Below are positions 4,548 to 40,261 of a DNA stretch of 64,000 nucleotides, piece by piece; position 1 is the stretch's first letter; each line of letters starts with the position of its first letter. Source of the stretch: Tulasnella sp. 424 (taxonomy: Eukaryota; Basidiomycota; Agaricomycetes; Cantharellales; Tulasnellaceae). Location: contig WSUB01000098.1 of assembly GCA_019633425.1 (NCBI GenBank), positions 62,001 through 126,000 of the forward strand, given 5' to 3'. The notes beneath the pieces were generated by a model. That model was not told where the DNA came from and did not search any database. It saw only the letters and a list, made by a program, of their open reading frames with translations. The translations under genes were made by a program, and so were the position numbers.

Positions 4548-7500
4548 ATGTCATCTGCCGATTCAAGTTCAACGTTATTAGCCGACCCTTCCAACAATGC
4601 GGATGGGGACCGTTTGGAAGTCAGTACCAGCAGTAGATTGCCACGTCCTAGCGCTCACAGATTCGATTTAAAACAAGGTCTGGCGCAAACGCTTGGCAAA
4701 TTTACGCATTAATCCTAACCGGCTCGAATACCTCGATAATGGCAAGATTATCGCAAGCGGAGGATTTGGACATGTGCGAAGAGCCATTCTGAAACCCCTC
4801 CCTCACGGCGATATCACCGATTCAGAGGTCAGGGTGGCTGTTAAGACGCTTCACATGCCAGTTGCAGTGGATTTCGACGCAGAACGCCTCGAAAAGGTTT
4901 GTGTCGTGTAGTTTATAAATGATGGCCAGTAACCTGGCATCCTTCCAAAGCGATTTATCCGGGAAACGTACGTCTGGTCACAAGTCAAGAACGAAAACCT
5001 CCTCGAGTTCCTTGGATTCCACTTCGCATCGTGTGATGGGAACGTCGAAGCTTTGCTCGTCGGTCCATGGTTAGAGAACGGACAGAGTGTTCCATACGTC
5101 AAGCAGCATCGCCTTTCTCCTTCAAGGCGATTACAGCTGGTGAGATGAGCCTCAGCTTTACTGAAGACGTTGCGGCTGGAGAGACTGATCGTTCATTGGA
5201 ACTACGAGCTCAGCTTCTCGATGCCGCTGAAGGACTCCGTTATTTGCATTCCCGTGTACCTCCGATTTGCCACGGCGACGTTAAAGGTGTAAGTCATAGC
5301 GTTACGATGATTCATTCTTGGTACTGACCCACCTCGCCAGTCAAACCTTCTGGTCAAAAGCGATGGTCGTGGTGCTCTTTGCGACTTTGGATTAGCACAG
5401 GTACTGGATGAGGAGTTCGAACAGATTGCCAGCAAAAGTATTCAGCGGGGTACTCTTCGTTGGACAAGCCCCGAACGACTTAACGACAGCCCGCCGGCGC
5501 CTCCTATGGACGTCTGGTCCTGGGGTTGGCTGGTATGGGAGGTCTGTTGCTTGCTAAGCCAGCGGGTTGGACACGACAGCTAATCATATGCCTTGCTTTA
5601 GATTATGACGGAGAAAGTCCCCTTCCATCAAATTACCAACGCTTCTGCTATCATGTTCCATATAGTAACGTCGAAGCTCCCGAGCTGCGAGCACGAGGAG
5701 TCCATTGCGCAGTTTCCAGCTCTGTCTCGGCTCATTCAGCTTTGCTGGCAGGCGGAACCTGATTCTCGACCGTTGATGGGCAAGTGTGTTGCAGATCTCC
5801 AGCAAATTGTTGGTACGACTTTCGAATGTTTTGGGCCCAACTGACAGTTCATGTGAGCAGATGAATCCTATACAACCAAGGAAAAGGGAAGAGACTATAG
5901 ACAGTATCCTGGAACATGGCTTGTACCCACATAAGAAGCCCCGTTTGCGTGGGCCTGCGGCGACAGCCACTCTAGATGCAGCACCGATGACGGTAAGTTG
6001 TATCGATTGGCTTTCTGTGGTAACCCAACTGAAAAGTAAATTAGCTGTTCACATCCCAATCAAGGGCAGTCCCGGTGGCGGACCCAGTGGCGGAGAAGAC
6101 TATTGTCAAAGCTTCGGTCGAGTCGGAGAACCAAGGAACTTTCACAACGGGAAGCGGCTTGTTTCCTTGGCTTGCGCAGCCTCCCGTCCCTGAAAAAAAC
6201 ATTGCTTCCCATTCAATATTGCCCGAAAGTGGTTCTATTCCACCGGGAAATTTGTCGCCGCATGGAGGGTTCTCTCGTGATCGTTCTACGGTAAGCTCTC
6301 TCGATTGGCTGTCTGTGATAACACAGCTGAGACGAAAGTTAGCCGCACGCGCCCCCAGGAAGGGCTACGCTCCCGGAGACTGAGAACAGTATCTTCAAAG
6401 CTGCCAGCGAGTCGGGGAACGCCAGAACATTCGCTTTAAAAAGTCGTCTGTTTCCCTCACATCCACTGCCTCCCTCCCTTGGAGAAAACATTGCTTCGTT
6501 TCCATCCAACGCTTCAGGGAAATATGGGGACGTCTCCCGTCCTCGAGGCCGCGCTGATCCTGCATATTCGGGTACATCAGACCGGGATGTCCATCAGGCA
6601 GGTTTAAACCCATTCTCAAAGGCAGAAATTCAAATGCCAATCTATGGCGAGAAAATTCAACTCCCTCCGATTCGGAGCTCTCCCGGTGAGTCGATAGCCT
6701 CACACTCTTTCCCAGCCAACTTTCGCCAGCCGGCCGAAGGAGTAAACAAATTTCCCGCTACTTCGATATTACCATGGACGACTGCACCTACTCCGGACAT
6801 CCCTCCCCAAGCTGAAAGGCTCCATCCACTGTCACAACAGTCGATCGGCATCAACAACGAACCTCCTCCCTCGATCATTGGAGGTGCGGATGGAAGGAGC
6901 CAGTCGGTGAGTTCGGAACCTGAGCTGAATCGCTTCGCGCGGCCCTTCCTGATCAATGCACTCCCCACAGGCCATCACGCAACTGACTCACATCCTCGAG
7001 AATCTTAAAGTATGTCATGGATGGAGGTTTATTACCGGAGCTTGACTGCTTTTACATCGATCAGCATATTCAATCGTCTCAATCGCAACAAGGGTCCACG
7101 TATGGGCCTACTGCCGATTACTGGAATGAAGTGACGCAATGGATATCTAAGGTCCCACTGTTTCGCGGCCGGCAATTACCTGCAGAGGCGGTAGCACCGT
7201 TTCTGCCGCATGGTTATGTCCCACCAGAACCGATATCCTATGGCACGCCCAGAATCCCGTCGGGCCAGGCGTGGTCAGAGACCCCAGTCCTACCCCCAGA
7301 CATACCGCACCCACGGCCAGAACAATACCAACACCGTGAGGTATACCCAGGCATCCCAAGGTCACCATCGCCCCACGCTGCATGCGTGTTGACTAAAAAC
7401 CCAATCCAAACGGAAGCGTCTGCTCAGTCTACCAACCTGTCTCGACTGTCTCCATCTAAGAGGAGTTCTATTTTTTTGGGTTCTGTCGGAGGCTTGGGAC

Positions 7501-8634
7501 GGGACTGGGGCTCAGCCACGTACGGATACGGGGAACCTCAACCCAGGTATCAGGAGGGGGATATCAGGGTTTATGACACATCAACTAGCGACGTCACCGG
7601 ATCTCTACGACAAGGTATTGTCCTCAAAACGGGACAGCTGGTGCGCATGCACGTCTGCAATGAGCTGAGCTACTCGGATAAGCTAACGAGGCGACGCAGG
7701 TTGCTCTCAAGTCCATTCGTTGTACTGCTTACGCAGGAAAGGACGCTTCTATTATGTCGCAACTTGACAAGTGGATTGTGTCCCAGACTTCATTACATCA
7801 CAATAACCTTGCACAAGTTCTCGGTATTGTGTCAATTGCGGAGAATCCGACGATCGTTAGTGAATGGTACCCCGGAGGAAACGTAGCCAAGTTTTTGAAG
7901 GTGGCCCCTCAAGTGCAAAGAATACGGATGGTAAGAGCTCTACAAGCATTGTTAATGGTTGATCATGTGGAAAGTTTAATGGCGGTCTCCGGCCACAGAT
8001 CTGTCAGGTCGCCGATGGGCTGATCTACCTCCATTCGCAAAAACCGCCTATCATACACTCAAACCTCAAGCCGGTAAGAATGTGGCAGACTCTCCTGGAT
8101 ATAAACTAATTCAAACCGTAGAGTAATGTTTTAATCGACCAAGATGGGACTGTAAAGTTGGGAGATGTGGGTGTTCTACAGTTCATAGAGCAAAACTCGA
8201 TTGCACTTGAAGTGCATGGCAAACCAGGAGACGTGAGGTGGACAGCACCGGAAGTCCTCGAAGGTCAGACTCGATCGCCTGCCTCTGATGTTTACGCTTT
8301 TGGCTGCTTGGCTCTTGGTAAGTCAATTCGGATTCGTCATAAAGACATGAGGTTAACGCTATGATGGATACAAGCCATCCTCAAAAATCAGCTGCCGTAT
8401 TCCAACTCAGAATCTGATATTTACGTGGCTAAAGCAATATCACGAGGCGAAATGCCGGTCAACAATGACCAAGCCTCCGAATTTCACGAGACATGGAGGC
8501 AATGTTGGTCTCAACATCCCTCCCAACGTCCAGCAATGACAACAGTTCGACCTTCGGTAAGCGATGAACCTTGTACCGCTGGGATCTTGGTTGCCGATTT
8601 TTACTGAAAGACTGCGCAGGTCGAACACTGGTAG
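4548..8634 (+). CDS. Kinase-pseudokinase fusion, copy A, about 1072 aa, 16 exons
   Basis: Predicted Ser/Thr (TKL-like) protein kinase fused to a pseudokinase. Exons: 4548-4619, 4678-4896, 4951-5139, 5214-5288, 5341-5541, 5602-5808, 5861-5992, 6045-6290, 6343-6906, 6971-7009, 7065-7640, 7700-7930, 7999-8073, 8122-8317, 8375-8556, 8620-8634; all phases agree and no stop interrupts. Domain 1 (about 25-321): loop ASGGFG near 50-55, VAVK with K80, HGD 180-182, DFG 200-202, SPER in place of APE, so probably active. A Pro/Ser-rich linker (about 322-790) includes a short helical stretch QLTHILENLK. Domain 2 (about 800-1068): no glycine loop, VALK with K844, HSN 937-939 instead of HRD, DVG 957-959, APE intact. 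The last exon encodes only VEHW. The donor after exon 6 (GTTGGT) is weak but is placed by comparison with D, where it is GTCAGT. Cytosolic; no signal peptide or membrane helix. Confidence 0.85.
5215..5291 (+). repeat. 77-nt segment identical in copies A and B
   Basis: Exon 4 of copy A (catalytic loop) plus the first bases of its intron match both sequences flanking the assembly gap in copy B base for base. Confidence 0.9.
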
Positions 8635-11600
8635 TGGTAATATGAGAGCAACCCAATCTCCCTGCACTGCACCGATCCACCTTTAATACTATTTCTGGTT
8701 ACATATAGTCTTTTTGAGAATGCGGATAATTAGTCACTTGTTTCCTTGTACTTACAACAGTGGGCTATCAACGTCCTTCAACAAGGTGGAGGGAGCTGGT
8801 GGGCTGAGCCTTCTGCAACCCCTCGAGACGAACCAGACGAAACCCGTCGCCCACCTGGGGCTCAGCCGTCTCTTGTTATATTTTTTATGCTCTAAAAAAA
8901 ACACGCCAATTAGAATACGCGATAGGCTAAATAAGCGAGCTCAGCAGGTCTCAGAAAATGAGCTACCTCAGCTGCTGTCATGAGCCCAAGACTTCAGGCT
9001 GATGGCGATAGAAAGCCGGAGGCCCGCTTCCACGTCCGATTGAGTTCATTTCCGAGTCTGATACATATTTCCTAGATGAGACCTGCGACAGTACCCCCTA
9101 AGGATCAACTTAGCGGCGGTTCGGTGAATTATTTATAACTTCGTTCTGTGGACTGGGAAGAATTCAAAGACGGGCAGATTGAAGGGGCGGATCCGAATGC
9201 TCCGAGATTCTCACAACCCTAGGGGCTTTGCAGGAAGGACCCTGCATGTTCTCCGCACCTCGACATCGTTCCATGGCCAACTAACCTCCCTCGACCCGGG
9301 AATAGATTAGACTGCCCTTAATGTAATTATCACTGAACAAGTAGCGCTGTGCTATGCTCCGAGATTAGGGACCGAAACCCCGGACACATCTTTTAGTCCG
9401 AAATCGATAGGAAAACAACTTGTTCGCGAAGATCTGGAACATACTACTCTGACATATTCATCTGAGCTCCGCCTACAGCTCCGATCTGCACCTACCATTC
9501 TGAGGTCCGGGTACAATTCTCGCTGTCGCGTTCGAGGGGTTACCATCGCTTCGTCCCACCGGATTCAGCACCGATTTCCGCGCCACCCGGTGCAATCGAC
9601 AGATTATAACAACTTTCGACATTCAGTTCCGGGGTCAGCAGGTATGGCCGGAGCCGAAAGTACTTGGAGACCGACTTTCGATAAGAAGTAGTCGGGACCG
9701 TTTGGAGCGTTGGGCTTCAATTTCGAGACAACTCGTCGGCGGCGCCGCGACATCGGACCCGATTCTCGTCAATTCGATGCCGAACATCAGCAAAATGGCT
9801 TCAGGGAGAGCATTGGTAGCCTCCTATTGGCTACTGGCCAGCTGATGACGTCGCGGTAAGCCTAAATGTGGCTTGAAAAGAGCAAAAATGATGAGAAACA
9901 GGCTGTTTTCGCGGGACCGGGGAATCGGCAACCGTGCTTAGCAACGGGAGTGTGGATAAAGAATAAGATAATGGAAGCGAAGAATATTTGGTGCCTATCG
10001 AAACCATCTCGATCTGTGAGGAAGGACACCACCGAGCTAGGGAGCAAAGGGTCACTGGACCGCAAGTTCTATTTAATCAGACTATTTAGTCCCTAGGAGG
10101 AGTGACTACTATCGAGACATGGGGCGGGTACAAGAGCTCCCGCATCGGGAGAAGGGTTTAACTGGTTTGGAGTCGTTGACGTCCGAGTTTGTGGGTCGCA
10201 CAGACCGCCAAAAGAAACTCCTGTAGTTCCTTGCTGGCCCAACCGAAAGCACGCCGCCCCGCAACCCTATGTCTCGCCACCAACCAGACTTGTTGGGTCT
10301 CCTCGCATTTCCCCTCGCCTGACCGGCCATAATCTCAACCGCTGGAATATGAGGCGATCAAAGCTCTCACTCGAAGACATTAAGCCCAAACTAAGCTGCC
10401 CATTCATTGTTGTTCGTTGAAGCGTCTTCTGCCTGAATGAGCTACATCAATCAGTCCGTTTGGACGTCTGTTGTCGATGGCGACGAAGCAGACGGCTAGA
10501 ACCTAATGTGATATTTGCGAGAGGTGCGATTGATATCTCCTAAGAGCAAGGAATATACTGGAATAAGAATGTCCAGCGATGGTCTTGCGGTACTAAAGGT
10601 TGATGGGGGGGGGACTGCGTCGGGCGATATGGTTTCTGACTGGGTGCGCACGTCACATGCATCCTAGTCGAATAAATGCCAGCACCTAGGTCATAAGTTA
10701 TTAATCTCGTCGATCTGTCACGTGGTGGTACGCGTCTGGGAAGGGGCACCCTCAACGACCTAGCCCTGCGCGTCACGAATTGTCCCATGCCGGTTGTATT
10801 TGAAACTTTGATATCTATCCCTATACTGCCTGGAGGAAAGAGGCGAAGGCGTGTGCATACGTATCCTGCTGTCCAAATCGTTCGTCCAATGGGTGCTCTT
10901 TGGGGGAGGGGGAGTCTGGACGTCATTCGACTGCATACCGGCCAACGAATTGGCGAACTGCGGTCCTCGAGCACGATGTAGGCCGTCAGACGGGTGAGAA
11001 CCACTCATTATACAATGTGGCGTCTTGTATGTTCGTGTTGGCGCAGAAGTCGCCGTGGTTCTGGTAGCTGGGCTTCGTGTAGCAGATGCACTTGGTAGGT
11101 CGTCGCGTCGACGGTAGCCTCTCGCGTTAGAGCGGATCTTGATGCTGGGACGCCTGCGAGGGCAGCCTTGGCATTTGTTGTAAAGTGGGGATTGCCTTGG
11201 ATCGAAGACCGTCCAGTCGATGTGAGGCTGAATCGTCTATCAAACGCGTGCACGCTGCACGGAGGGCGAGACTTGCCGTTCGAAAGAGACACGTCACTAC
11301 AGTCACGAGAAATGCGAGATAGGTCAATGTAAATCATGCGGTAGGTGCAACCAGGGGACTTGATCTCATACGCCCCGCTCGTCCGAGCAGGCGAAGTTAA
11401 GCCGATGGTCATTTTGGGCGGTGGTGGAGCTGGAAATGGAGCCAGATTAGAGGTCAAAGCTTTGATCTATCGTTGCTCCCGGAACAGCAGCATTGTGCGC
11501 CAATCATTCACCTTTAGGTACGTGGGCTCCGGATCCAGGCTGTCACCCATGGACTACTCGACGCGCCGAACGTCCAGTCTGACGGTGGCGGGGCCAACTT

Positions 11601-12198
11601 GGAAGCGCAATCGGTCTTTGTACGGAGTTGAAGTCCTTGGCGGACGATGGGGAGTGAGCTGAAGGGCGATGAAGACGGCATGGGACAGCGTCAAGCCTGA
11701 TGCGGGTTGGGGAGGTGTCAGTCGAAATGGTGATATGTGGCTGGGGAAGTGTTTCACAAGTTTCTATAACGGAATCGATATGCTCAGGCTGGACTCACTC
11801 CATAATGGTCTAATGTTCTGCTATCGGTCTAATGCATATGAAGGCAGTGCTGCGGGTTCAAGAACGGGGGAAACGATTCGAGGCGGGATAGGCGGTGGTG
11901 GGTCGAAGGATCGAGCGAAACACGACAACAACACCCTCATTACGCGTTCGAAACTCCGATTTTCGCCTTGCACATCGACAGAGTCGGCATCCCATCCCCC
12001 AAATTTGACTCGGGACCGCAATGAAGGTGTACAATTGCAAGCTGACTCTGTATACAGGTTACATACCACGCGAGATTAAGGAACGTTCGGTCTGCGGCGC
12101 GAACGACATTAGAAGATCACGAGAGAAGAGGAAAGTCGGGCCAAATTCAAACATGAAGAGCGGGTCATGAACCCACTCGGCTAGCCGAACATAAGTGG
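8635..12198. other. Flank of copy A with degenerate coding traces
   Basis: No intact gene. Several pieces look like relics: a plus-strand stretch at about 11345-11640 containing GEVKPM and GGGGAGNGARLE resembles a globular protein and is repeated at about 19120-19370, where it is frameshifted and stopped. A minus-strand frame at about 11105-11010 reads CICYTKPSYQNHGDFCANTN but starts after a stop and is missing from unit B. Frames do not stay open across the two copies, arguing for decayed rather than functional genes. Confidence 0.4.
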
Positions 12199-12561
12199 CT
12201 AGTGTCCGGACGGCATCTCCGAATTATATACAGGAGGTTGCGAATAGCCTGAATGAGCCGAGTCCGGCGAAGATTGATGCACGGGAGGAGTGGCCGATAT
12301 TGGATCCGGGGCAGCAACAAATGAGTTTGAGGATCCGCCCGAATGCCCGAAGCTCGGCGGGAGCGTCAGAATAGGGAGTCCATGAAAGTTTCGATTCAGA
12401 CGTTTTATGTGCTCTTTCACCGAGTCTTTTCGTTTATTTCTGTACATGAAGGTTAAGAGATTCCGTGAGTACTCGGTCAGGGTCATTGGGCGGGATGGTG
12501 ACACACTGGTAACGGCATCCCCGAGCCGAGCATCCAAACTCGGCATCGCGAGCGTGCAGCT
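12199..12561 (-). pseudogene. Truncated zinc-finger gene (finger copy 1)
   Basis: This is the 3' part of the three-finger gene whose intact paralogue lies at 19949-20606. It keeps the last exon (KRKDSVKEHIKRLNRNF, then the Ser/Pro-rich tail ending EMPSGH) and part of finger 2. The first two exons and the first Cys pair of finger 2 are gone because the duplication junction falls at about 12561. A 20-nt deletion relative to the paralogue removes the segment between fingers 2 and 3, and a TGG to TAG change shortens the tail. Not expected to make a functional protein. Confidence 0.75.
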
Positions 12562-12712
12562 GGCTGCTTTGACAGGCACGGTGCGAAAGGCCATTTGGTT
12601 TGTGATCACCTAACCACGTGGCAATGTTGGATTCAAGACCAACTTTTCCAGTATATCCGACGTCAAAAAGGTTCCAGGTGCTCTTCTTTGATTTTACCAT
12701 TTGGCTCCAGAC

Positions 12713-15700
12713 ATGTCATCTGCCGATCCGTGTTCAGCGTTATTAGCCAACCCTTCCAACAATGCGGATAGGGACCTTTTGGAAGTCAGTACCAGCAGTT
12801 GATTGCCACGTCGTAGCGCTTACAAATTTGATTTAAAACAAGGTCTGGCGCAAACGCTTGGCAAATTTTCGCATTAATCCTGACCGGCTCGAATACCTCG
12901 ATAACGGCAAGATCATCGCAAGCGGAGGATTTGGACATGTGCGAAGAGCCATTCTGAAACCCCTCCCTCAAGGCGACATCACTGGTTCAGAGGTCAGGGT
13001 AGCTGTTAAGATGCTTCACATGCCAGTTGCGGTGGATTTCGACGCAGAACGCCTCGAAATGGTTTGTATCGTGTAGTTGCTAAATGATGGTTGTTAACCT
13101 GACATTCTTCCCAAGCGATTTATCCGAGAAACGTACATCTGGTCACAAGTCAGGAACGAAAACCTCCTCGAGTTCCTTGGATCCAACTTCGCATCGTCTG
13201 ATGGGAACGTCGAAGCTTTGCTCGTCTGTCCATGGTTAGAGAACGGACAGAGTGTTCCATACGTTAAGCAGCATCGCCTTTCTCCTTTAAGGCGATTACA
13301 GCTGGTGAGATGAGCCTCGGCTTTACTGAAGACGTTGCGGCTGGAGCGACTGATTGTTTATTGGAACTATGAGCTCAGCTTCTCGATGCCGCTGAAGGAC
13401 TCCGTTATTTGCATTCCCGTGTACCTCCGATTTGCCACGGCGACGTTAAAGGTGTANNNNNNNNNNNNNNNNNNNNNNNNNNNNNNNNNNNNNNNNNNNN
13501 NNNNNNNNNNNNNNNNNNNNNNNNNNNNNNNNNNNNNNNNNNNNNNNNNNNNNNNNTTCTCGATGCCGCTGAAGGACTCCGTTATTTGCATTCCCGTGTA
13601 CCTCCGATTTGCCACGGCGACGTTAAAGGTGTACGTCACAGCGTTACGACGATTCATTCTCGGTACTGACCCACCTCGCCAGTCAAACCTTCTGGTCAAA
13701 AGTGACGGTCGTGGAGCTCTCTGTGACTTTGGGTTGGCACAGGTATTGGAAGAGGAGTTCGAACAGATTGCCAGCAAAAGTATTCAGCGAGGTACACTCC
13801 GTTGGACAAGTCCCGAACGACTTAACGACAGCCCACCAGCGCCTCCTATGGACGTCTGGTCCTGGGGCTGGTTGGTATGGGAGGTCTGTTGCTTGTTAAG
13901 CCGGAGAGTTGGACACCACAGCTAATTATATGCTTTGCTTTAGATTATGACGGAAAAAATCCCCTTCCATCAAATTACCAACGCTTCTGCTGTCATGTTC
14001 CATATCGTAACGTCGAAGCTCCCGAGCTGCGAGCACGAAGAGTCCGTTGGGCAGTTTCCAGCTCTGTCTCGGCTCATTCAGCTTTGCTGGCAGGCCGAAC
14101 CTGATTCTCGACCGTTGATGAACAAGTGTGTTGCAGATCTCCAGCAAATTGTTGGTACGACTTTCGAAGGTTCTGGGCCCAACTGACAGTTCCTGTGAAC
14201 AGATGAATCCTATAGAACCAAGCAAAGAGGAAGAGACTCTAGACGATATCCTGGAACATGACTCGTACCCACGTAAGAAGCCCCGTTTGCGTGGGCCTGA
14301 GGCGACAGCCACTGGAGATACAGCACCGATGACGGTAAGTTGTATCAATTGCCTTTCTGTGGTAACCCGATTGAAAAGTAAATTAGCTGTTCACATCCCA
14401 ATCAATGGCAGTCCCGGTGGCGAAGAAAACTATCGTCGAAGCTCCGGTCGAGTCGGAGAACCATGGAGCTTTCGCAACGGGACTCGGACTCGACTTGTTT
14501 CCTTGGCCCGCGCAGCCTCCCGTCCTTGAAAAAACCATTGCTATACTGGCCGAAAGTGGTTCTATTCCACCGGGAAATTTGTCGCCGCATGGAGGGTTCT
14601 CCCGTGATCGTTCTACGGTAAGCTCTATCTCTCGGCTTTCTGTGATAACACAACTAAGATGAAAGTTAGCCGTTCACGTCCTCAGAAAGGGCCGCGCTCC
14701 CGGAGACTAATAAACGTATTACTGGAGCTTCTGGCGAGCTGGGGGACGCCAGAACGTTCGCGTTGGAAAGTCGTGTGCTTCCCTTACCACAGCCTCCCTC
14801 CGTCGAAGAAAACATTGCTTCGTATTCACCATGGCGCCCAGATGATTCGTTTCCGCCCAAAACTTCATGGACATATGGAGACATCTCCCACCCCTCGGGC
14901 CGTACTGATCTTGCATACCTGACTACATCAGAGCAGGGTGTCCATCAGGCAGGTTCGAACACATTCCCAAAGCCAGAAATACAAGTATCAAGCTATAACG
15001 AGAATCTCAAACTCGCTCCAATCCGGAGTCCTCACGGTTTAACAGAGTCGATATCCTTCCACTCTTTACCGGGCAGCTTTGGCCAGACAGCCGAAGGAGG
15101 AAACGAATTTCGCGCCACTTCGGTATTACCATGGACGACGGAATCTACTCGGGGCATCCCCGTCCAAGCTGAACGGCTCTACCCACTGTCACTACAGTCT
15201 CTCGGCATCGGTAATGGACCTCTTACCTCGGTCCCTGGAGGTGCAGATGGAAGGAGCCAGTTGGTGCGTTCATAACCCGAGCTGAATCTCTTCGCGCGGC
15301 CTCTCCTGAACCATGCACTCGCCACAGGCCATCACGCAACTGACTCACATCCTCGAGAATCTTAAAGTATGTGATCTCTGGACCCAGCTAATTGCTGGAG
15401 CTTGACTACTTTGCATCGTTCAGCAAATTCAATCATCTGAATCGCAACAAGGCGCAACGCGCGGACCTACTGACGTTTACTGGAATGAAGTAACGCAGTG
15501 GATATCTAACGTACCATTGTTAGGCGGTCCGCGAATACATGCGAGGGCGTATAGGTACGCGCGGAAGCGGTCGCGATCGCTGGTACAAGAAGGAACACTC
15601 AAGGCGAGACAGCTTCGGCGTCGGCGGTCTGAGGAGAACCCACCGGAGGCGAATCTGCCGATGATAGTTAAGGGCAGTTCAGAAATCACAGAACGAGTCG

Positions 15701-19948: not shown

Positions 19949-20606
19949 CTAGCCGAACATAAGTGGCCAGTGTCCAGACGGCATCTCCGAATTGTATACA
20001 GGAGACTGCGAATAACCTGAATAAGCTGAGTCCGGCGAAGATTGATGCATGGGAGGAGTGACCGATATTGGATCCGGGGCAGCGGGAGCAAATGAGTTCG
20101 ATGACCCGCCCGAATGCCCGAAGCTCGGCGGGAGCGTCAGAATTGGGAGTCCAAGAAAGTTTCGATGCAGACGTTTTATGTGCTCTTTAACCGAGTCTTT
20201 TCGCTTACTCCTGTATATGAAGGTTCAGAGATCCCGTAAATGCTCGGTCAGGGTCATTGGGCGGGATGGTAACGTACTGGTAGCGGCATCCACGAGCCGA
20301 GCACCCAAAAGACTTTGCGTGACCAGCTCGGCATCGCGAGCGTGCAGCTGGGTCCAGAAAGCTTCTTCCGCACTCGCATCCGTGCCATTTGCTGCGATCG
20401 TGTCTTGTCGGCGATACTGTGAGCACGGTACCACGAGGGCTGCGAGGCGGAGCAGCTAGGGAGTCAACTTACTGTGAATTAATATGACGAGAAAGCCCAG
20501 ACGGGTTCTTTCGAAATGCAAGTCTCAGCAAAGAGGGCTGAAAAGGAAAACTATAGAACCCGGCACTCACGGCTAGGAATTTTTCACAATACGGACACAA
20601 TGGCAT
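19949..20606 (-). CDS. Three-finger zinc-finger protein, 148 aa, four exons (finger copy 2)
   Basis: Small nucleic-acid-binding type zinc-finger protein. Exons: 20606-20571, 20507-20473, 20391-20278, 20210-19949, all with GT-AG ends and consistent phase. Finger 1 (MPLCPYCEKFLA plus NPSGLSRHINSH) is canonical C-x2-C-x12-H-x3-H and is assembled across two introns. Finger 2 (CECGRSFLDPAARSRCRAGH) has C-x-C and a Cys in place of the first His. Finger 3 (CSARGCRYQ plus KRKDSVKEHIKRLH) is C-x4-C-x12-H-x4-H. A Ser/Pro-rich tail of about 65 residues ends LMFG. Split fingers joined cleanly by splicing are strong support for the model. Likely nuclear; DNA target unknown. It flanks kinase B in antisense. 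Confidence 0.8.
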
Positions 20607-29100: not shown

Positions 29101-29996
29101 CGACCGGAGGATCTGGATCGTTACATGGTAAACTTGTCTGGATGGATGGATCGTCAGGCGTCTCGCGAGCATCCAAACGTCGCGAAATTGGTCGGCAAGA
29201 CAATCCTGGGCTCCACCCTAGCTATCGTCAGCGAGTGGTATTCAGGCGGTACTATCACAGATTATCTGAGAGATAACCCTCACGCACATAGAAAATCTCT
29301 TGTATGTTAATCCTTCACGGATAAAGGGCCTCCTTACCAACTCATCTTCTCCGTAGCTCCGTCAAGTCACAGAAGGACTAGAATACCTGCATCAAAAACC
29401 GACCATTCTGCACAATAACATTAAGCCGGTAATAAAAAAGGTCTTATTTCTTTTCATAGTAGCTGACTCCATGATTTAGAGCAACGTTCTCGTTGATGCA
29501 GACGGAAAGGTTAAGCTCAGTGACGTGGGTGTTGTCTCCTTCCTAACTGTCACAAAAGACGTGGACATATATGGAAAACCTGGAGACTCCAGGTGGACAG
29601 CGCCGGAAATTCTTGAAGGAGATCCATACTCAACCGCGTCAGATGTATATTCATTCGGCTGCTTAGCCCTTGGTTGGTAACGGTGGATGATCTCAGCTCG
29701 TCAAGACTTTCCTAATTATCGATTTCCCTCTCCACAGTCATCTTGAGCAACCAAGTACCTTATGCCAGCTTCTATACAGACGCAGCGGTGTCTAAGGCGA
29801 TATTCCGAGGAGAATTGCCTGTTGACTGGGACTCTGTCTCGGGGCTTCATCCTACATGGAGACTGTGTTGGAATCAGGGTCCTTCCAGTCGGCCAACAAT
29901 GCGAGCAGTACTCGGTTCAGTAAGTACTGTAAAGCGCCATTACCGAATTGGTATCACGCTTAAGTACCAATTTTGTTCTAGGTTGGTTATTGGTAG
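26134..29996 (+). CDS. Kinase-pseudokinase fusion, copy C, about 1015 aa, 15 exons
   Basis: Exons: 26134-26175, 26232-26474, 26528-26716, 26791-26865, 26921-27124, 27183-27389, 27442-27567, 27619-28236, 28299-28337, 28398-29003, 29065-29301, 29357-29428, 29480-29672, 29738-29919, 29982-29996, all in phase. Domain 1: ANGAFG loop, an acidic insert of about 10 residues before VAVK (K80), HGD 178-180, DFG 198-200. Linker: RKDLPPLPPPK, a basic patch SKKQRK, NPWDLLDV and a likely coiled-coil (LNRLHKTLQ, then SSQAHYLQEQREIKQYLSQV). Domain 2: VGIK with K787, HNN 881-883, DVG 901-903, APE kept. Last exon VGYW. Sequence is intermediate between the A/B and D/E pairs but shares linker motifs with D/E, suggesting an older branch. 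The intron-13 donor GTTGGT is non-ideal. Confidence 0.85.
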
Positions 29997-30297: not shown

Positions 30298-33200
30298 ATG
30301 AATCAACATCAAAGCACGGATGACCCGGATGCGACTCTTTTGGAGGTGCTTAATTTATGTTTTAGGACCTCTGCTCTCACACACTCACCAGGTTTTCCAC
30401 CTGCGACCTAGACTTGGCGCCAGCGCATGGCTGCATTTCGCATCCATCCGAATCGACTCTCTTACATGGACGGCGGAAAGGTCGTCGCAAGCGGTGGTTT
30501 TGGTCAAGTAAAAAAAGCAATCTTCAACGGTCGAACTTCAGTGACGACATCTACAACACGCGGAATAACTGTTGCCGTCAAGACACTGCAAATACATGTC
30601 AATGTAGACACGGAACGTCTAGAAAAGGTGAGGACTATGGTATTCTAAATCAGCTGCCATCTAAATTGATGTCCATTCTGTCGTAGAGGTTCATGAGGGA
30701 AGCATACGTTTGGTCACAGCTCAAGAACGATCATATCACCGAATTTCTTGGATTTTATTTTTCATGCTCCGACGGGAAAATGGAGGCATTACTAATCTGC
30801 CCGTGGATGGAGAATGGGCAGAGTGTTCGTTATGTACAACAACAGGGCCTTCCCTCGGTAAAACGCCTCCAGTTGGTGAGCAGACCGTCAATAACGCAGA
30901 AAGGGGGAGACGAGGAGATCTAATACACCTTTGTGGAATAGCTGCTGGACGCAGCTAGGGGTCTTCAATATTTACATTCCCGCGTCCCACCCATTTGCCA
31001 TGGCGACATCAAGGGCGTAAGTTCCGGTTGGCTCGAACTCATATCTATGACTCATAAGAATCATCCAGTCCAACGTACTGATAAGGGATGACGGACGCGC
31101 TGCCATCTGCGACTTCGGTCTAGCCCAAGTTCTCGACGAGGAGTTTGAGCGGCTAGCGAGTCAAACCATCCACCGTGGTACCGTTCGCTGGACCAGTCCC
31201 GAACGCCTTGACGACGACGGTCCGCTTGCACCATCAAGTGATGTATGGTCCTGGGCATGGTTGATTTGGGAGGTTCGTCGTAGATGAATGACTGCAGCCT
31301 CTGAAACAGCGACTCATCCAGTTAATGTAGTTTATGACGGAGAAGATACCTTTCCATCTCGTCAGCAATTCATCTGCTGTCATATTCCATATCGTGACCC
31401 TCAAACTGCCAGCTTACGAACGAGATCCTGCCATTGCAGAGGTGCCGACACTGTCGAAATTGATGCAATTATGTTGGCAAAGAGAGCCCGAATCCAGATT
31501 GCAGATGGACGAATGCATCGACCGTTTGGAGCAAATCGTCAGTACAGCTCCTTTTGAAAAGGATTCCTGTCTAACATTACTCGGATCTAGCTTGAAGGGT
31601 TTGAATCAACCCAAATGACTGGAAAGAGTCATCCCCAGCAGCATCGGCCAGAAGAGGCTCCGAGCACATTTCAACCAATGACGACCTCGAGTTTCCCCGT
31701 CAACCATCCTCCCGTATCTACCTCCGCCCCTGTAAGTTCATATTCCCCATACATTGCGAAAAGGCTGACGTTTCGCTCGCTTTATTCTGAGTAGTTGAGG
31801 GGTCGAGTTGAAGAGGCGCCTGGTGTCGGCTCTCTACAGATACTTCTAGAATATCCACGTCCATCTCCGACAGTCTCTACAGATCTTCCACCACGTTCAG
31901 CCGATCCTCGAAAGGATTTGCCTCCTATTCCTGGTCAAGACAGCAAAACGAATGCTGCGACCGCCTCCGATTCGTCGAATGAGCACCGAACAGGCCCCAT
32001 GCTCGACTTCCAAGCAAAATTCTTCTCAGCAAATGTTACGGAGAACCAACCCAGCTCGTCTCGTTCTAACCCTCTCACGTCTTTCATACCGACCAGATCT
32101 TTGTCCTCGGGAACGGCTAATAAGGCGCCTCGAATTGGCATCAAAAAATTGACAAAGCGTTTACTTCCGTCTTCCAAAAGAAAGACCCAACAAAGCAATA
32201 GTCATGATGAGGAACTGTGGGACTGGGACATTGTCCCCTCGCAGTCACCTGTAGAAACTATCTGGAACACCTCGTCGCGTCCCATTAACAGTGACGCGAC
32301 CGACCTTGTACGTTCGACGCTTCGATCCCACTTATGACGCTAGAAATCTGACCTTCACTCATCTGGATTACTCTACAGCGGGACCAACAGATTGATTATA
32401 TTCTGAAGACACTTCAGGTACGCTCGTTGCTCTAAAGGCTACGCTGGACTCGGATTTAACTTCTTCGGGAAACCTTTTCGCCAAACAGAGACTCGACAGC
32501 TCACAGGAACAGCATTTTCAGAGGCAGAGAGACATTTCAGACTACCTGAGTCGACTTGACCGGTGGCTGTCCGGGGCTCCGGTCTTTGGATCACCATCCC
32601 AAGGCCTGCAGCCCATGTACACCGGTCAGCCTACCATCGTTCAGCCCACCTTCTTTACTGGGGTTCCCGCCCTTCAACCCTCGTATAGTATACCCCAGCC
32701 CATTTTTGTCGGTCAGCCTCAGACTATTATAGTTCCAGGCCAGCAGCCTATGCCCTTTATCCCACCGTCGGCCACAATCGTGCAGCCGACAACGGGTCCC
32801 GGCTCCAGCCACTCTTCGATTGCTTCCTACCGGCCGTCCTCTACACCTAGAATCGTCATACAGCAACCGCCTAGAGTCGTCATACAGCAACCGCCTGCCT
32901 CAACTGGCACACCGCCGCCCACGATAATACACATTCCCTCGAATAGGAGTGATTCTCAAACGCCATCACCCAATGTGGCTCAACATTCGGGCGTCGGCTT
33001 GAATGCTCCTACTGTGCACGACCCAATCATCATACAGCAACCGTCCGTCTCACCCGGCATACAACCACCCGCGGTAATACGCATTGGTGATCCTCGAACC
33101 CCAACACCCCCGCCAATCAGACACCTCGAGTACCCAAACTATTCAGTCGCCAGCCTCGAAGGCACCCCCTCCAGCATCGCCAGCCACTTCTCCAGCTACT

Positions 33201-34421
33201 ACTCGGAGGCCTTCAGTGCAGAACGAACCGGGAGAACCAAAAGATACGCCGCAAGAGCGCGCCCCGCCGATCTTCCCGTTATTCGTAGGTTCAGAGAGAA
33301 TGAACTCCAGATGCACGCCTTTGAAGGCAAAGACCATGTCACGATGGGTGTTCTTTCAGAGGCTGGACGTATGGTGAGCTCCGTGCTGCGTGGTTGTCAC
33401 GCGTCGCAATGCTTACGAACCTTCAACTTTTTAAGATTGCTGTGAAACCTGTCAACTTTAGATTCGATGGCGGTGAATATGCGTCAGAAAGCGCAATCAT
33501 GAACGAATTCGATGACTGGCTCAGGCTTTGGGGTTCGCTGAGGCATGATAATATCGCGGAGCTGGTGGGAAGCGTCTTTTTCAATGGCACTCCGTCAGTC
33601 ATCACGTATCGGGTTGCAAGTGGTAACGTCGGGGACTATCTGAGGGGCAACCCACAGGCTGATAGGCCAAACCTGGTGAGCTGGAGATTGCCTCCCAATG
33701 TCCAGTGTACGAGGGTTGCTCAATGAGATAAACCGACAGCTTCGCCAAGTTGCCGAAGGTCTCCAGTATCTCCATACTAGGCCTGTCGAAATCGTACTAC
33801 ACTCTAACCTGAAACCGGTAAGCAATCCCACCGCTATTCGACCTACACTCTTCACACCATCAAACGGCTCACGTTCGGGAATACAGTGCAACATTCTCGT
33901 TGAAAATGGAAGAGTCGAGCTGGGTGATATTGGGATTTTAGAGTTCCTCGAAATGAAAGGTGTCGGAGCTGAGATGCACGGGAAGACGGGAGACGTAAGG
34001 TGGACGGCGCCTGAAGTCCTTGAAGGTCCCGACCGTCAGTGGTGGTCAGATGTATATTCTTTCGGTTGCTTGGCCCTTTGTAAGTCGGCTCCTTCCGGCC
34101 TCATATACGAACGAACACCAACTAGAACCTGCTCTAACGCCGTCATCTCCTCCACAGACATCCTAAAAGATGAAATCCCTTACTCAACTCTAGAAACCGA
34201 CGTTGCCGTGTCAAAAGCAATATACCGAGGAGAGCTGCCCGTCAACCGGGATGCAGCTTCCAAACTGCACCCTACCTGGAAGCTCTGCTGGTCGCATGAC
34301 CCCAAGCGCCGTCCAAACATGAGAACGGTTCTCGAATCGGTAAGCAGCAGCATGTGTCCGTTTTGACAGACAACCTGCCCACTAACGATGGCTGGACGTA
34401 TGATAGCTCGACGACTGGTGA
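30298..34421 (+). CDS. Kinase-pseudokinase fusion, copy D, about 1074 aa, 15 exons
   Basis: Exons: 30298-30345, 30412-30627, 30687-30875, 30942-31016, 31069-31272, 31331-31537, 31591-31731, 31795-32307, 32379-32417, 32489-33373, 33436-33675, 33740-33817, 33887-34079, 34158-34339, 34407-34421. Domain 1: ASGGFG, K73 in VAVK, HGD 171-173, DFG 191-193, then MTEKIPFH and the C-lobe. Linker: RKDLPPIPGQD, basic KKLTKRLLPSSKRK, ELWDWDIVPS, a 13-residue helical exon RDQQIDYILKTLQ, then PMPFIPP and two IIIQQPP-type repeats. Domain 2: IAVK with K843, HSN 940-942, DIG 959-961, APE kept. Ends LDDW. The Ser normally starting the exon after HSNLKP is Cys here. Closest paralogue is E. Confidence 0.85.
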
Positions 34422-34529: not shown

Positions 34530-35428
34530 AGTACCCTCTGGAGGAAGGACTTCCTTCCACCCTGTTTTGGACGTGGCGGGTGGCGGGACAGGTTGAAGCG
34601 AATAGCGCCTGGGGATACTTGCGCTCCCCTTTGAGACTCGGTAAACTCGGCGGTGTCGTAGTCGACGACGAATCGTCCACACGGTATCATCCTCCACCGA
34701 CGGCCCATCCCCAGACTGGACCAACGCCTTCTTCAACTTGTCAACCTAATCCTTCTTCCCATTCGTCAGCACAAATACCCTCTCCAAACCAGGATGTAAC
34801 CTCCCAATCTCCCTCAGCCTCTTCACGATGTGGTCGATTTCGGACACCTGCTCATGTACAAGTCGTGGTTCTTTCCCCAGCTGAGGTAACCTGACAACGT
34901 GTCCGGTGGGGTGAACCGGTCGAGGAGGAAAGGGAACTGGTTTCACCCTGCGAACGGTTTGATCCGGTCCGCGAGCCAATGGCAGTGCATCTTGAAGTCG
35001 CCTCGGCGTAGGTGCACGGCGATGAGCCCCTTGATGTTCAGTGAGGTGGTGGAGTTTGAGGTGAACGATGGGTCGGAATGCGAGTTGGGGGATTGGAGGG
35101 AGCGGGACGAGAGCACGGAGGATGGTGTTCGGCGGATAAACCCCCCGTGATACGTGGAACGTCGGTCGGGTGTTGAAGATAAAGTTTCGCTCTCCGTAGG
35201 AATATCATCACGCTTTCCATGGAGCAGAGGCGGGTTTCACGGTCCGTCGGGTAGTAGCGGTGGTTCGTTTTGTACGGACTGCGCGGGTCATGTCATGGAA
35301 GATAGGAAGATTTCGACGAACGGCTGCTTGGATCAAGGGTGACCCGGCGAAACGGGGGATGATGGGGGATGAAAATAGTGAAGGCCATACCGAAAGTATC
35401 CTTGGACTTGCAATGAGCCTAAAATAGC
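34530..35428 (-). pseudogene. Fucosyltransferase-like pseudogene fragment
   Basis: Homologous to exon 4 and a piece of intron 3 of the intact gene at 40856-43122. Recognisable parts are ERVFVLTNGKKD and the reading of the RRGD region in broken frames. A TGG to TAG change gives a stop right after NGKKD, small deletions break the frame around the CWPEIDHIV segment, and the last exon is missing: sequence shared with the 3' flank of kinase E jumps directly into exon 4 at about 34545. The right edge falls inside what was intron 3. It shows that the block kinase plus 3' half of the glycosyltransferase was duplicated together. Confidence 0.8.
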
Positions 35429-35695
35429 GGGGCGGGGTCGATCAAGGGTTCCTAGGGATAGCGGACGTTATGAACGTCTTTCACTGTCCCTCTGAGCATT
35501 AAGAGATATAAAATTACAGTCGGTCCCATTCTGGCATCTTCAAGGACCCGCGCGAGGAACGTGATTTAGTTATTCCCAAAATAGTTTGTTTGTGTCCTGT
35601 TCATGAGTCATCGGCGCATACTTCGGGCGGCTAATCGCACTGCTCGCCAATTCGCACACCTACTCTTCCCCACCACCAAATTGCCCAGCTCAAGG
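35429..35695 (+). promoter_or_regulatory. Promoter region of kinase E
   Basis: Shares blocks with the DNA upstream of kinase D, including GAGATATAAAAT at about 35508, a TATA-like element about 185 nt before the ATG. Confidence 0.4.
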
Positions 35696-38600
35696 ATGAA
35701 TCAGCACAAAAGCACGGATGGGCCAGATGTGATCCTTTTGGAGGTGCTTAATTTGTATCTTGAGACTTCCGCTCGTCACACTCTCACACGTCTACCACCG
35801 ACTACCTAGGCTTGGCGGCAGCGCATAGCTGCATTTCGTATCCATCCCAATCAGCTCTCTTACATGGATGAAGGAAAGGTGGTCGCCAGCGGTGGTTTTG
35901 GTCAAGTAAAAAAAGCAACTTTCAACGGCCGAACTTCAATGACGGCATCCACAACGGACGGAATAACCGTTGCCGTCAAGACACTGCAAGTACATATTAA
36001 TGTAGACACGGAACGTCTCGAAAAGGTAGAAACTCTTGTACTCTAAGGCTTGTCATCTAAATTAATCTCCATCTGGTCGTAGAGGTTCATGAGGGAAGCA
36101 TACGTTTGGTCAAAGCTCCAGAACGATCACATCATCGATTTTCTTGGCTTCTATTTTTCATGTGCTGAAGGGAAAATGGAGGCATTATTAATTTGCCCGT
36201 GGATGGAGAACGGGCAGAGTGTTCGCTATGTCCAACAACAGCGCCTTCCCTCGGTAAAACGCCTGCAGTTGGTGAGCGGACCGTCTATCACGCAGAAAGG
36301 CGGGAACGAAGAGATCTGATACACTTTTGTGGAATAGCTGTTGGATGCAGCTAAGGGCCTACAATATTTACATTCCTGCGTCCCACCCATTTGCCATGGC
36401 GACATCAAGGGCGTAAGTTCCGATTGGCTCGAACTCATATCTATGGCTCATAAGAATCATCTAGTCCAACGTACTGATAAGGGACGACGGGCGCGCTGCC
36501 ATCTGCGACTTCGGTCTGGCTCAAGTTCTCGACGAGGAGTTTGAGCGGCTGGCGAGTCAAACCATCCACCGTGGTACCGTTCGCTGGACCAGTCCCGAAC
36601 GCCTTGACGATAACGGCCCGCTTGCACCATCAAGTGATGTATGGTCCTGGGCATGGTTGATTTGGGAGGTTCGTCCCTATAAGAAAGACTGTGCAGCTGA
36701 AACAGAGATTCATCCAGTTAATGTAGTTTATGACGGAGAAGATACCTTTCCATCTCGTCAGCAATTCATCTGCTGTCATATTCCATATCGTGACCCTCAA
36801 ACTTCCCGCTTACGAACGAGACTCCGCCATTGCAGAGGTGCCGACATTGTCGAAGCTTATGCAATTATGTTGGCAAAGAGAGCCCGAATCCAGATTGCAG
36901 ATGGACGAATGCATCGACCGTTTAGAGCAAATCGTCAGTACAACTCCCTTCGAAGAGGATTCTTGTCTAACACAATCTGGATCTAGCTTGAAGGGTTTGA
37001 GCCACCCAAAATGACTGGAAAGGGTCATCTCCAGCAGGATCACTCGGAAGAGGCTCCGAGCCCATTTCAACCCATGATGACCACGAGCTTCTTAGCCCAA
37101 ACGACTCCCGTGACTACCTTCGTCCCATTAAGTTCATATTCTCCGAACGTTGCGGAAAAGTCGAGGGCACTGGTCGAAGAATTACCTGGTATTAGTTCTC
37201 TACAGTTACACCTCGGACCTCAACCTTTGTCTCCGATGGTATCTACAGGTCGCCCACCACGTCCAGCCAATCTTCGCCAGGATTTCCCTCCGATTCCTGG
37301 CCAAGACAGCAAAACGTATGCTGGCACGGCCTCCGATTCGTCGAACGAGCAACCCAAAGGCCCCATACCTGATCTACCAGTGAAAATCTTTTCAGCAAAT
37401 GCTACGGACGTCCAACCCAGCTCGTCTCGTCCCAACCCTTTCACCTCTTCTACACCGACCAGATCGTCGTCTTTGGGAACGGCCAATCAGGCGCCTCGAA
37501 ATGGTAGCAAGAGGTTGACAAAGCCTTTACTTCCGTCTTCCGAAAGGAAGACCCAACAAAGGAATGGTCATAATGAGGAACTATGGGACTGGGATATTGT
37601 ACCATCGCCGGCACCTTTAGAAACTCCCTTGAACGCCTCCGAGTCCGACTCGTCGCGTCCTATGAACAGTGATGTAGCCGACCTTGTACGTTCGCATTCG
37701 ACGCTTTGACCACGCTCGAAATTCGACCTTTACTCATCATCAACACTTTACAGCGGGACCAACAGATTGATTATATTCTGAGGACACTTCGGGTGCGCTC
37801 GTTGCTCACAAGTCTACGCTGGACTCGGATTTAACCTCTTCGGGAAACCTTTCCGCCAAACAGAGACTCGAAAGCTCACAGGAACAGCATTCCCAGAGAC
37901 AGAAAGACATTTCAAATTACCTGACCCGATTTAACCGGTGGATATCTGGGGCTCCGGTCTTTGGATCCCCAGATGTTTCTTACCAGGGCCAGCCCGTTCC
38001 GGGATACACTGGCCAGCCTGCCTTCGTTACATTCCCAACTCCAGCCCAGATTTCCCCTGCCGTTACTGGGGCTCCCGTCTTTGAACCGCCAGCTCAGCCC
38101 TTTGGAATCCCCGGCGCGCCTTCTTCCATCGTTCCGGGTGCGCCTGCACCCTTTATCCCGCCTCAGGCTGTCGGTCAGCCCTTCGGGATTCTCCCTGATC
38201 AGCCTTCTTCCATCATGGAAAATTGGCCTGTACCCTTTATCCCGCCTGGGGTCGCTAGTTCCGTGACAGGCCAGCAGCCTATGCCCTTTATCCCGCAGCC
38301 GGTCACAAAGCCGGCAGCGGGTCCCGGCTCCAGCCACTCTTCGATTGCTTTCTACCGTCCGTCCTCTACACCCAGAACGGGTCATCCAATCGTCATACAG
38401 CAACCGCCTGGTCCAACAGGAGGCATACAGCCACCCGCGATAATACGTATTCCCTCGAACAGGAGTGATTCTCGAATACCATCACCCCATGTGTCCCAGT
38501 ATACAGGCGTCGCCTTGAATGCTCCAGTCGCACGCGACCCAATCATCATACAGCAACCAACCGGCATACGACCACTGGAAGGAGTGGCTGACATCAGTGA

Positions 38601-40261
38601 CTCTAGAACATTATCACCCCATGTGGACCAGCATATAGGCGTCGTCTTGACTGATTCAGTTGAGCGCCACCAAACCATCATACAGCTACCGCCCGTCTCA
38701 CCGGGCATACAGCCGCCCACGATAATACGCATTGGTGATTCTCGAATGCCATCTCCGTCCGGCTCAACTGGCATGCGACCACCCATGGTAATACACATCC
38801 CCTCGAACAAGAGTGACTCTAGCACGCCATCAAGCGTCCGTGCACGGAGGATACTAAGCGTCGAGTCCGCACCTGCTGAATACCCAACCGTCTTACAGCA
38901 ACCAACCGGCATACGACCACTGGAAGGAGTGGCTGATATCAGTGACTCTAGAACGCCATCATCACGTGTGTCTCAGAGCGTCTTGCTTGTTGAAAGTGGT
39001 CCGGTCGCGAGCCACCGCAGTGGCCAACCCGCCATCGCCTCCACACCATACACCAGCGCTAGCTACCCGTTAGCCTCAAGTGCAAAAGAAATCGAGAGAA
39101 ACGGAAGATACCGAAGAGCTCGCCCCATCAGGACAGGTCTTCCCTTTATTCGTAGGTTCAGTGAGAATGAACTCCAGATGCACGCGTTTGAAGGCAAAGA
39201 CCAAGCCACGATGGGTATTCTTTCAGAGGCTGGACGTATGGTGAGCTCCGTGCTGCGTGGTTGTCACACGTCGCAATGCTTACGAACCTTTGACGTTTTA
39301 AGATTGCTGTTAAACCTGTCAACTTTGCATCCGATGGCGGTGGACATGCGTCAGAAAGCGCAATCATGGACGAATTCGATGACTGGCTCAGGCTTTGGGG
39401 TTCGCTGAGGCACGATAACATCGCGGAGCTGGTGGGAAGCGTTTTTTTCAATGGCATTCCTTCAGTCATCACGTATCGGGTTGCAAGTGGCAACGTCGAG
39501 GACTATCTAAAGGGTAACCCACAGGCTGATAGGCCAAACCTGGTGAGCTCGAGATTGGCTCTCAATGTTCAGTGTACGAGGGGTTGCTTAATGAAATAAA
39601 TTCGACAGCTTCGCCAAGTTGCCGAAGGCCTCAAGCATCTCCATACTAGGCCCGCCGAAATCAGACACTCTAACCTGAAGCCGGTAAACAATTCCCACTG
39701 CTACATCCCTTACACCACCAGACGACTGACGTTTGTAAAATACAGAGCAACATTCTCGTTGAAAATGGAAGAGTCGAGCTGGGTGATATTGGGATTTTAG
39801 AGTTCCTCGAAATGAAAGGTGTCGGAGCTGAGATGCACGGGAAGACGGGAGACGTAAGGTGGACAGCGCCTGAAGTCCTTGAAGGGCCCGACCGACAGTG
39901 GTGGTCGGACGTTTATTCTTTCGGTTGCTTGGCCCTCTGTAAGACACGAACGAACACCGACTAGGACCTGCCCTAACGCCGTCATCTCCTCCACAGTCAT
40001 CCTAAGAGATGAAATCCCTTACTCAACTCTAGAAACCGACGTTGCCGTGTCAAAAGCAATATACCGAGGGGATCTGCCTGTCAACCGAGATGCAGCTTCC
40101 AGACTTCACCCTACCTGGAAGCTCTGCTGGTCGCATGACCCCAAGCGCCGTCCAAACATGAGAACGGTTCTCGAATCGGTAAGCAGCAGCATATCTCCGT
40201 TTTGACAGACAACCGGCCCGCTGACGATGGCTGGACGTATGATAGCTCGAGGACTGGTGAA
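35696..40261 (+). CDS. Kinase-pseudokinase fusion, copy E, about 1252 aa, 14 exons
   Basis: Exons: 35696-35743, 35810-36025, 36083-36271, 36338-36412, 36465-36668, 36727-36933, 36987-37685, 37754-37792, 37864-39240, 39303-39542, 39609-39683, 39746-39938, 39997-40178, 40247-40261. Domain 1 matches D: K73, HGD 171-173, DFG 191-193. Domain 2: IAVK with K1022, HSN 1118-1120, DIG 1137-1139; ends LEDW. Two differences from D stand out. The seventh intron of D has become coding: its donor CCTGTAAGTTC reads CCATTAAGTTC here, the acceptor is deleted and the frame stays open. The linker exon is 1377 nt against 885 nt in D because of extra IIQQP/PSNRSDSR repeats and PFIPP motifs. Convergent with the fucosyltransferase-like gene. 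Confidence 0.85.
38386..39010 (+). repeat. Degenerate 35-40 residue coding repeats in the copy E linker
   Basis: Repeated protein motifs of the form IxIQQPxGIxPPxIIRIxS followed by SDSRxPSPHVxQ occur about four times; the unit PTGIRPLEGVADISDSRT appears twice almost unchanged. Copy D has about two units. This is a length-variable disordered spacer between the two kinase folds. Confidence 0.75.

Follow-up and report, generated by a model that had tools for sequence, protein, structure and literature searches.

Why should each gene of a tandem array in a mushroom-forming fungus encode, on one chain, an intact-looking protein kinase together with a second kinase fold stripped of its catalytic aspartate? 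The question is raised by a 64,000-nt stretch of Tulasnella sp. 424 (Basidiomycota, Agaricomycetes, Cantharellales; C447:62001-126000 of a 46.8-Mb assembly in 448 contigs), hereafter the window, which carries five multi-exon genes, g1 to g5, at positions 4548-40260, all on the + strand. In our gene models, built with a splice-aware dynamic-programming script and then corrected manually against the paralogue alignment, all five share one layout, namely an active-looking kinase, a linker of 434-679 residues that includes a single helix, and, C-terminally, another kinase fold in which the catalytic Asp is missing. Both this layout and the domain order, the reverse of that in JAKs, had been put forward in the original prediction and are borne out by the models. 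We propose, with moderate confidence, that each protein is an intramolecular switch in which an active N-terminal kinase would be controlled by a dead, probably nucleotide-binding C-terminal fold. The elements are listed here; clades A to C are those of the domain trees described further below.

4548-8634, + strand: g1, kinase-pseudokinase gene, 16 exons, 1069 amino acids (aa), clade A (gene model; two kinase domains found)
4614-5808, + strand: g1 N-terminal kinase domain, HGDVKG, catalytic Asp codon at 5277
6971-7148, + strand: g1 linker helix, starting with a 39-nt micro-exon, 6971-7009 (five-protein alignment; helix prediction on homologues only)
7554-8631, + strand: g1 C-terminal pseudokinase, HSNLKP, Asn codon AAC at 8062
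12713-17088, + strand: g2, kinase-pseudokinase gene, 16 exons, 1108 aa, clade A; 100-N gap at 13457-13556 taken as intronic
12779-14150, + strand: g2 N-terminal kinase domain
15328-15507, + strand: g2 linker helix (alignment)
16024-17085, + strand: g2 C-terminal pseudokinase, Asn codon AAC at 16516
26134-29996, + strand: g3, kinase-pseudokinase gene, 15 exons, 1015 aa, clade B (public model FRC04_012232)
26170-27389, + strand: g3 N-terminal kinase domain (fold prediction on P0001)
28299-28481, + strand: g3 linker helix (prediction on P0001)
28917-29993, + strand: g3 C-terminal pseudokinase, HNNIKP, Asn codon AAC at 29417 (fold prediction on P0001)
30298-34421, + strand: g4, kinase-pseudokinase gene, 15 exons, 1074 aa, clade C
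30340-31537, + strand: g4 N-terminal kinase domain
32379-32572, + strand: g4 linker helix (alignment)
33296-34418, + strand: g4 C-terminal pseudokinase, Asn codon AAC at 33806
35696-40260, + strand: g5, kinase-pseudokinase gene, 14 exons, 1252 aa, clade C
35738-36933, + strand: g5 N-terminal kinase domain
37754-37947, + strand: g5 linker helix (alignment)
39163-40257, + strand: g5 C-terminal pseudokinase, Asn codon AAC at 39672
40246-40260, + strand: g5 last exon, 15 nt, L-E-D-W-stop
8620-8634 (g1), 17074-17088 (g2), 29982-29996 (g3) and 34407-34421 (g4), + strand: corresponding 15-nt last exons

The first domains retain the β3 Lys, the αC-Glu, the catalytic Asp (HGD[VI]KG), the Asn and the DFG Asp in all five genes, in keeping with the earlier claim that Lys, HGD and DFG are preserved. 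They are non-RD (HGD), and their loop reads HGD[VI]KGSN in 5/5, without the AARN given as tyrosine-kinase-specific in PMC3937382 (this and the other papers cited by PMC number are referred to in excerpt). In our reading, the N-terminal domain is a putatively active Ser/Thr-type, non-RD kinase of the tyrosine kinase-like (TKL) kind. Among homologues, the catalytic Asp is present in 11 of 12 readable first domains, the exception being P0002 (HGN). The second domains present a different picture. The catalytic Asp, whose loss had likewise been predicted, is replaced by Asn (HSN/HNN) and the αC-Glu by Trp in all five genes, and by eye no canonical glycine loop is seen upstream of the β3 Lys; the β3 Lys itself, the catalytic-loop Asn and the motif Asp (DVG or DIG) are retained in 5/5. 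The catalytic Asp is missing in 21/21 readable second domains (5 from the window and 16 homologues, the latter with Asn in 14, Gly in P0011 and Ser in P0012), where the homologue count leaves out P0001, P0018 and P0125 (window genes) as well as P0008 and both P0004 second domains, the last three because the exon is absent or misread in the annotated proteins; one P0004 domain aligns a Glu from unrelated sequence at the catalytic site. No αC-Glu is found in any of the 23 second domains covering that position (5 from the window and 18 from homologues, these with Trp in 14, Leu in two, Val in one and Arg in one), while the β3 Lys and the Asp at the DFG position are present wherever the sequence covers them.

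Fold prediction, suggested together with the original prediction as a check, yields a kinase fold for both halves, with P0001 standing for g3, and a Pfam scan of g1, g3 and g4 (three of the five models) returned kinase-type families and nothing else. As judged from sequence and models, the second domains are thus kinase folds without residues needed for phosphotransfer, i.e., pseudokinases, and appear to be catalytically dead. One may object that the second domain is active by an unusual route, or that A-to-I editing converts the AAC codon into one for Asp. The retained β3 Lys, catalytic-loop Asn and DFG Asp would fit the former, and the presence of AAC in all five window genes the latter; however, the αC-Glu and the glycine loop are gone too, and single A-to-I edits cannot yield Asp from the Gly of P0011 or the Ser of P0012. 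We consider this explanation very improbable.

The combination of lost and retained residues recalls the JH2 domain of JAKs, a regulatory pseudokinase that has HGN, an αC-Glu replaced by Ala and a β3 Lys contacting the motif Asp, and that binds ATP (PMC6287396). In all five window genes, the second domain likewise has H-x-N for HRD, lacks the αC-Glu and keeps the β3 Lys and the motif Asp. The similarity ends there, as the domain order is opposite, FERM and SH2 domains were not found in g1, g3 and g4, and the active fungal domain has the Ser/Thr-type loop described above. It is because of this JH2-like lesion pattern that we favor a nucleotide-binding pseudokinase controlling the kinase of the same chain. 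The C-terminal fold would probably still hold a nucleotide via its β3 Lys, catalytic-loop Asn and DFG Asp, and might control the N-terminal kinase in cis, or in trans if the linker helix keeps two chains together as a dimer; as a whole, the long linker would act as a tether bearing short docking motifs. That wheat WTK7-TM requires both of its domains for kinase activity (PMC11006675) is in line with such control. Regulation, dimerization and the biological input and output of such a switch are what we infer from residue patterns and analogy.

Four observations weigh against the proposed switch. In P0002 (FRC00_013759, Tulasnella sp. 408), neither domain has the catalytic Asp (HGN in the first, HAN in the second), so that a kinase-plus-regulator scheme does not fit every family member. 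The linkers of g4 and g5 differ in length by 179 residues, which speaks against an arrangement fixed tightly by the linker. The AlphaFold alignments were shallow (17 and 14 rows) and mean pLDDT was about 55, and domain-domain contacts are not judgeable from these models. Finally, the public annotation of g2 (P0018) stops short of the pseudokinase and that of g5 (P0125) begins within the linker. The last point would also fit the notion that each unit consists of two genes, a kinase gene followed by a pseudokinase gene, fused only in our models. Yet the frame across the linker is open and spliceable in 5/5 copies, intron sites are the same across g1-g5 in both folds and around the helix (those in the linker differ between genes; 13-15 introns per gene in total), the N and C domain trees are congruent, and g3 as well as full-length homologues from Tulasnella sp. 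408, sp. 427 and UAMH 9824 are annotated as single proteins. Two separate genes per unit are therefore the least credible of the explanations weighed here. The public g3 protein, FRC04_012232 of Tulasnella sp. 424, has 1004 aa, and our 1015-aa model matched it at 96% over 100% in a homology search; the 39-nt micro-exon was put into the g3 model on the basis of this protein. In the fourth intron of g2, a 100-N run is flanked by two identical 77-bp copies of one exon end (13380-13633), the run being most likely a scaffolding artefact.

Trees of 18 N and 18 C domains both give the same three groups: clade A with g1, g2, P0009 and two sequences from sp. 427; clade B with g3 and 408_013759, to which the C tree adds 427_008630a (90/87); and clade C with g4, g5 and the remaining sequences. 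Pairwise N and C distances correlate over 15 proteins (r = 0.939; Mantel 0/5000), with the C domain evolving about 1.7 times faster. Kinase and pseudokinase are thus co-inherited according to their sequences. The idea of a local expansion holds for two recent pairs only, g1/g2 and g4/g5; the three lineages themselves are old and shared with other Tulasnella. Besides the full-length relatives mentioned, partial ones occur in sp. 417, and none close was seen for T. calospora or sp. 403 among the matches listed (best 120 each). Sp. 403 does carry other multi-kinase proteins, such as P0015 with three tandem kinase domains, the third HGN, and WD40 in its precomputed Pfam list. Judged by locus tags, the order B-C-C is apparently retained in sp. 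408 (013759, 013760, 013762) and sp. 427 (008630, 008631), with two annotations merging neighbors. The recent duplications are visible at the DNA level: the g1 unit (4393-12563) recurs piecewise at 12566-20351 with 75-91% identity, and the g4 unit holds a truncated copy (34545-35432) of the neighbor gene at 41103-42000 (- strand), 86% identical. The copy lies between g4 and g5 and marks the g4 duplication unit; the gene it derives from has a weak O-fucosyltransferase match (PF10250, below cut-off).

A recent internal duplication of one domain was rejected as the origin of the tandem: the N and C clades (both 100/100) are not sisters, and a tree forcing them together was 14.75 log-units worse (p-AU 0.043), a borderline value obtained with a long C branch. 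Two intron sites, before the LxDAAxGL helix and after HxxxK[GP], are the same in place and phase in both folds, and introns near these places are seen by eye in the single-kinase arrays on contigs C400 and C418 as well, so that both folds probably descend from the same wider kinase family.

Nonsynonymous to synonymous rate ratios (dN/dS), calculated per domain by NG86 for the two recent pairs, were 0.20 (N), 0.70 (linker) and 0.25 (C) for g1-g2, and 0.13, 0.53 and 0.26 for g4-g5; in the four wider pairs synonymous sites were saturated, save for one linker (g3-g5, dN/dS 0.37). Values of 0.13-0.26 mean that both folds, the dead one included, are under purifying selection. The linker divergence claimed earlier is real in that the linker ratios of 0.53-0.70 exceed those of the folds, but it reflects weak constraint, and positive selection on the linker is unsupported. 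Synonymous divergence was higher in the linker (dS 0.42-0.44) than in the folds (0.15-0.26), and a comparison of g1 with g2 gave 81-93% identity for introns of the N kinase, 78-92% for those of the linker and 88-91% for those of the pseudokinase, with 68% where linker and pseudokinase meet; gene conversion at the gene ends is possible.

The linker is not featureless. KDLPPxP-type pieces, WDWD or PWDLLD, a helix ending in YLxxxxxW[LFI]SxAP and, in some homologues, a basic LKKLTKRLL stretch recur, most clearly in clades B and C. The helix of g1 and g2 is diverged but visible in the alignment; among 23 family sequences scanned, the helix pattern was unmatched in P0009, P0010, P0013, P0016, P0017 and P0123. 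SH3 binding and dimerization via the linker may be read from these motifs. They also invite the interpretation that pseudokinase and linker form a scaffold recruiting substrates or partners, e.g., SH3 proteins at KDLPPxP, without regulating activity. This would be in line with the strict class I SH3-like motif [RK]xLPPxP in 10/23 family sequences, including g3 and g4, with the recurrence of the WDWD/PWDLLD-type and helix motifs, and with a stretch, RWTAPE-x-LEG, that has a single variable position across 14 aligned second domains. On the other hand, the SH3-like motif is missing from g1 and g2 and degenerate in g5, and a scaffold leaves the retention of the β3 Lys and the DFG Asp unexplained, and we regard a pure scaffold as quite unlikely. 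At the very C-terminus, g1-g5 all end in S[VL]xxW, encoded by the 15-nt last exon (5/5), as do 10 further homologues (15/23 family sequences); of the eight others, P0010, P0014, P0016 and P0017 are labeled partial, while the annotated proteins P0002, P0004, P0005 and P0008 have different C-termini.

Fungi of the genus Tulasnella live in partnership with orchids, and the non-RD feature is associated with immune kinases. Against this background, the main rival to the switch is a sensor of non-self or effectors, by analogy with plant tandem kinase proteins (TKPs), in which pseudokinase and linker would be the decoy or recognition surface and the kinase the output, in immunity, allorecognition or orchid symbiosis. 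Such a role is compatible with a regulatory switch, and both can be true at the same time. The tandemly duplicated array, the non-RD first domain, a linker much more variable than either fold and the occurrence of kinase/pseudokinase tandems of both orders in other Agaricomycetes would all suit a sensor, as would the kinase-pseudokinase layout itself, known from WTK1 and others. In plant TKPs such as WTK1/Yr15, tandem kinase-like domains, the first complete and the second without catalytic residues, are combined with no further known domain (PMC6170490, PMC11006675), a feature also seen in our Pfam scan of g1, g3 and g4; plants have the reverse order and kinase-kinase forms as well (same sources). 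For wheat WTK7-TM, both domains are called non-RD (PMC11006675). The likeness stated in the original prediction is real in layout, and we take it as an analogy, since the plant TKP set was assigned to plant kinase families, 175 of 184 domains to receptor-like kinases (PMC6170490). The fungal N domains, by contrast, group with Tulasnella kinases: in a 40-row tree whose one plant kinase is CTR1-like and which holds no plant receptor-like kinase, their clade joins kinases of sp. 403 (97/96). The fungal linkers span 434-679 residues, and it is for plant members that pathogen resistance, where tested, is known.

Several findings argue against a sensor. The pseudokinase is under purifying selection (dN/dS 0.25-0.26), linker dN/dS never exceeds 1 in any pair, and Pfam detected no NLR, HET or HeLo domain in 10 neighboring frames, which gave kinases and the weak O-fucosyltransferase match only. 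Moreover, five family copies were found genome-wide, a lower bound, and no further array of this kind was found in the sp. 424 genome. Outside the window, identity does not rise above 42% with the C query or 49% with the N query, compared with 51-98% for second-domain C-lobe exons and 45-97% for N-query exons inside, although by E-value alone a few outside places (C101) outrank the weakest window exons. We thus consider a sensor function possible but unlikely. The arrays on C400 and C418, as far as read (four loci, parts of the contigs), are single kinases: L011-L014 are tandem arrays of the HGDIKS type, in which the catalytic loop is followed by an intron in roughly the same position. A second tandem duplication is located in the window itself at 49543-55140 and 56001-63111 (pieces 80-89% identical), with single kinase-like frames at 52903-53403 and 60878-61378 (+ strand) and one at 55518-55904 (- strand).

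Two fungal systems deserve comparison. GCN2, arranged as RWD-pseudokinase-kinase-HisRS-C-terminal domain, is a known fungal protein with a pseudokinase joined to a kinase, and its pseudokinase is said to influence the neighboring domain (PMC12394161), but the order in g1-g5 is kinase-pseudokinase, and RWD and HisRS were not found in g1, g3 and g4. The FslK/expanded Agaricomycetes TKL kinases are also expanded tyrosine kinase/TKL-like kinases of mushroom-forming fungi without AARN (PMC3937382, PMC2838846), FslK being defined by a place in the clade sister to animal tyrosine kinases; they are, however, mostly single-domain (16/241 with extra domains), and the excerpted text describes no pseudokinase partner (PMC3937382). 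In open-access literature excluding preprints, screened by titles and abstract beginnings, we found no report of fungal kinase-then-pseudokinase tandem proteins; the excerpts of PMC12394161 name GCN2 only, and those of PMC3591445 contain remarks on Bub1/BubR1, Ffk and SRPK and no tandem. The layout itself is already known, and the Tulasnella tandem family appears to be separate from the plant, animal and GCN2 types; its arrangement looks to have evolved separately from JAKs and plant tandem kinases.

Tandems in other fungi, a point raised with the original prediction, were looked at in part, using 343 proteins gathered by similarity to a few queries (best 120 per query), which is not a survey. 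At least 97 had two or more matches to a kinase profile built here, fragments counted. The kinase precedes the pseudokinase in eight mutually similar proteins (P0127-P0130, P0132, P0134, P0235 and P0241), of which four come from named Suillus species, and also in P0150 from Steccherinum and in P0021. The pseudokinase comes first in P0137 and P0145 from Mycena, in P0276 from Rhizoctonia, and in P0024, P0242 and P0244; Suillus P0019 has two pseudokinases followed by a kinase. The catalytic Asp is replaced by Asn or Gly in P0019, P0127, P0137, P0242 and P0276. P0021, P0137, P0145, P0150, P0242, P0244 and P0276 lack the catalytic Asp and retain the αC-Glu; at the sites checked, they are otherwise altered in DFG (P0242, P0244) and the Asn (P0276) only. 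The lesion in most of these tandems is therefore milder than in Tulasnella, and the JH2 pattern belongs to the Tulasnella family. The Suillus tandems (P0127 and relatives) resemble g1-g5 in having a kinase (HGD) followed by a pseudokinase (HGN), but their linker is short and their domains fall outside the Tulasnella clades. In the 40-row tree, which included P0019, P0127 and P0021 and left out the Mycena, Rhizoctonia and Steccherinum tandems, the Suillus domains cluster together (99/98), separately from both the N and the C domains of Tulasnella, making an independent origin of the Suillus tandems likely; the two P0021 domains pair with each other, also apart from the Tulasnella clades.

A broader and rather doubtful scenario, a little less probable in our view than the sensor role, is that tandem kinase-pseudokinase switches arose several times in mushroom-forming fungi, separately from those of plants and animals, each time through loss of the same catalytic Asp, for which Asn is the usual replacement. 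The old, three-lineage Tulasnella array would then represent one such family, whose members act inside the cell as receptors for non-self or symbiosis and whose JH2-type pseudokinase senses nucleotides, a counterpart of the wheat tandem kinases. A kinase and a pseudokinase are already known to share one chain in JAKs and plant tandem kinases, which are both tied to immunity, as well as in GCN2. If the scenario is true, an old, conserved fungal family with JH2-like lesions, together with tandems of both orders in other fungi, would mark the pairing as a solution that three kingdoms have come to repeatedly, and would offer a testable function for part of the TKL expansion in Agaricomycetes, which is so far unexplained.

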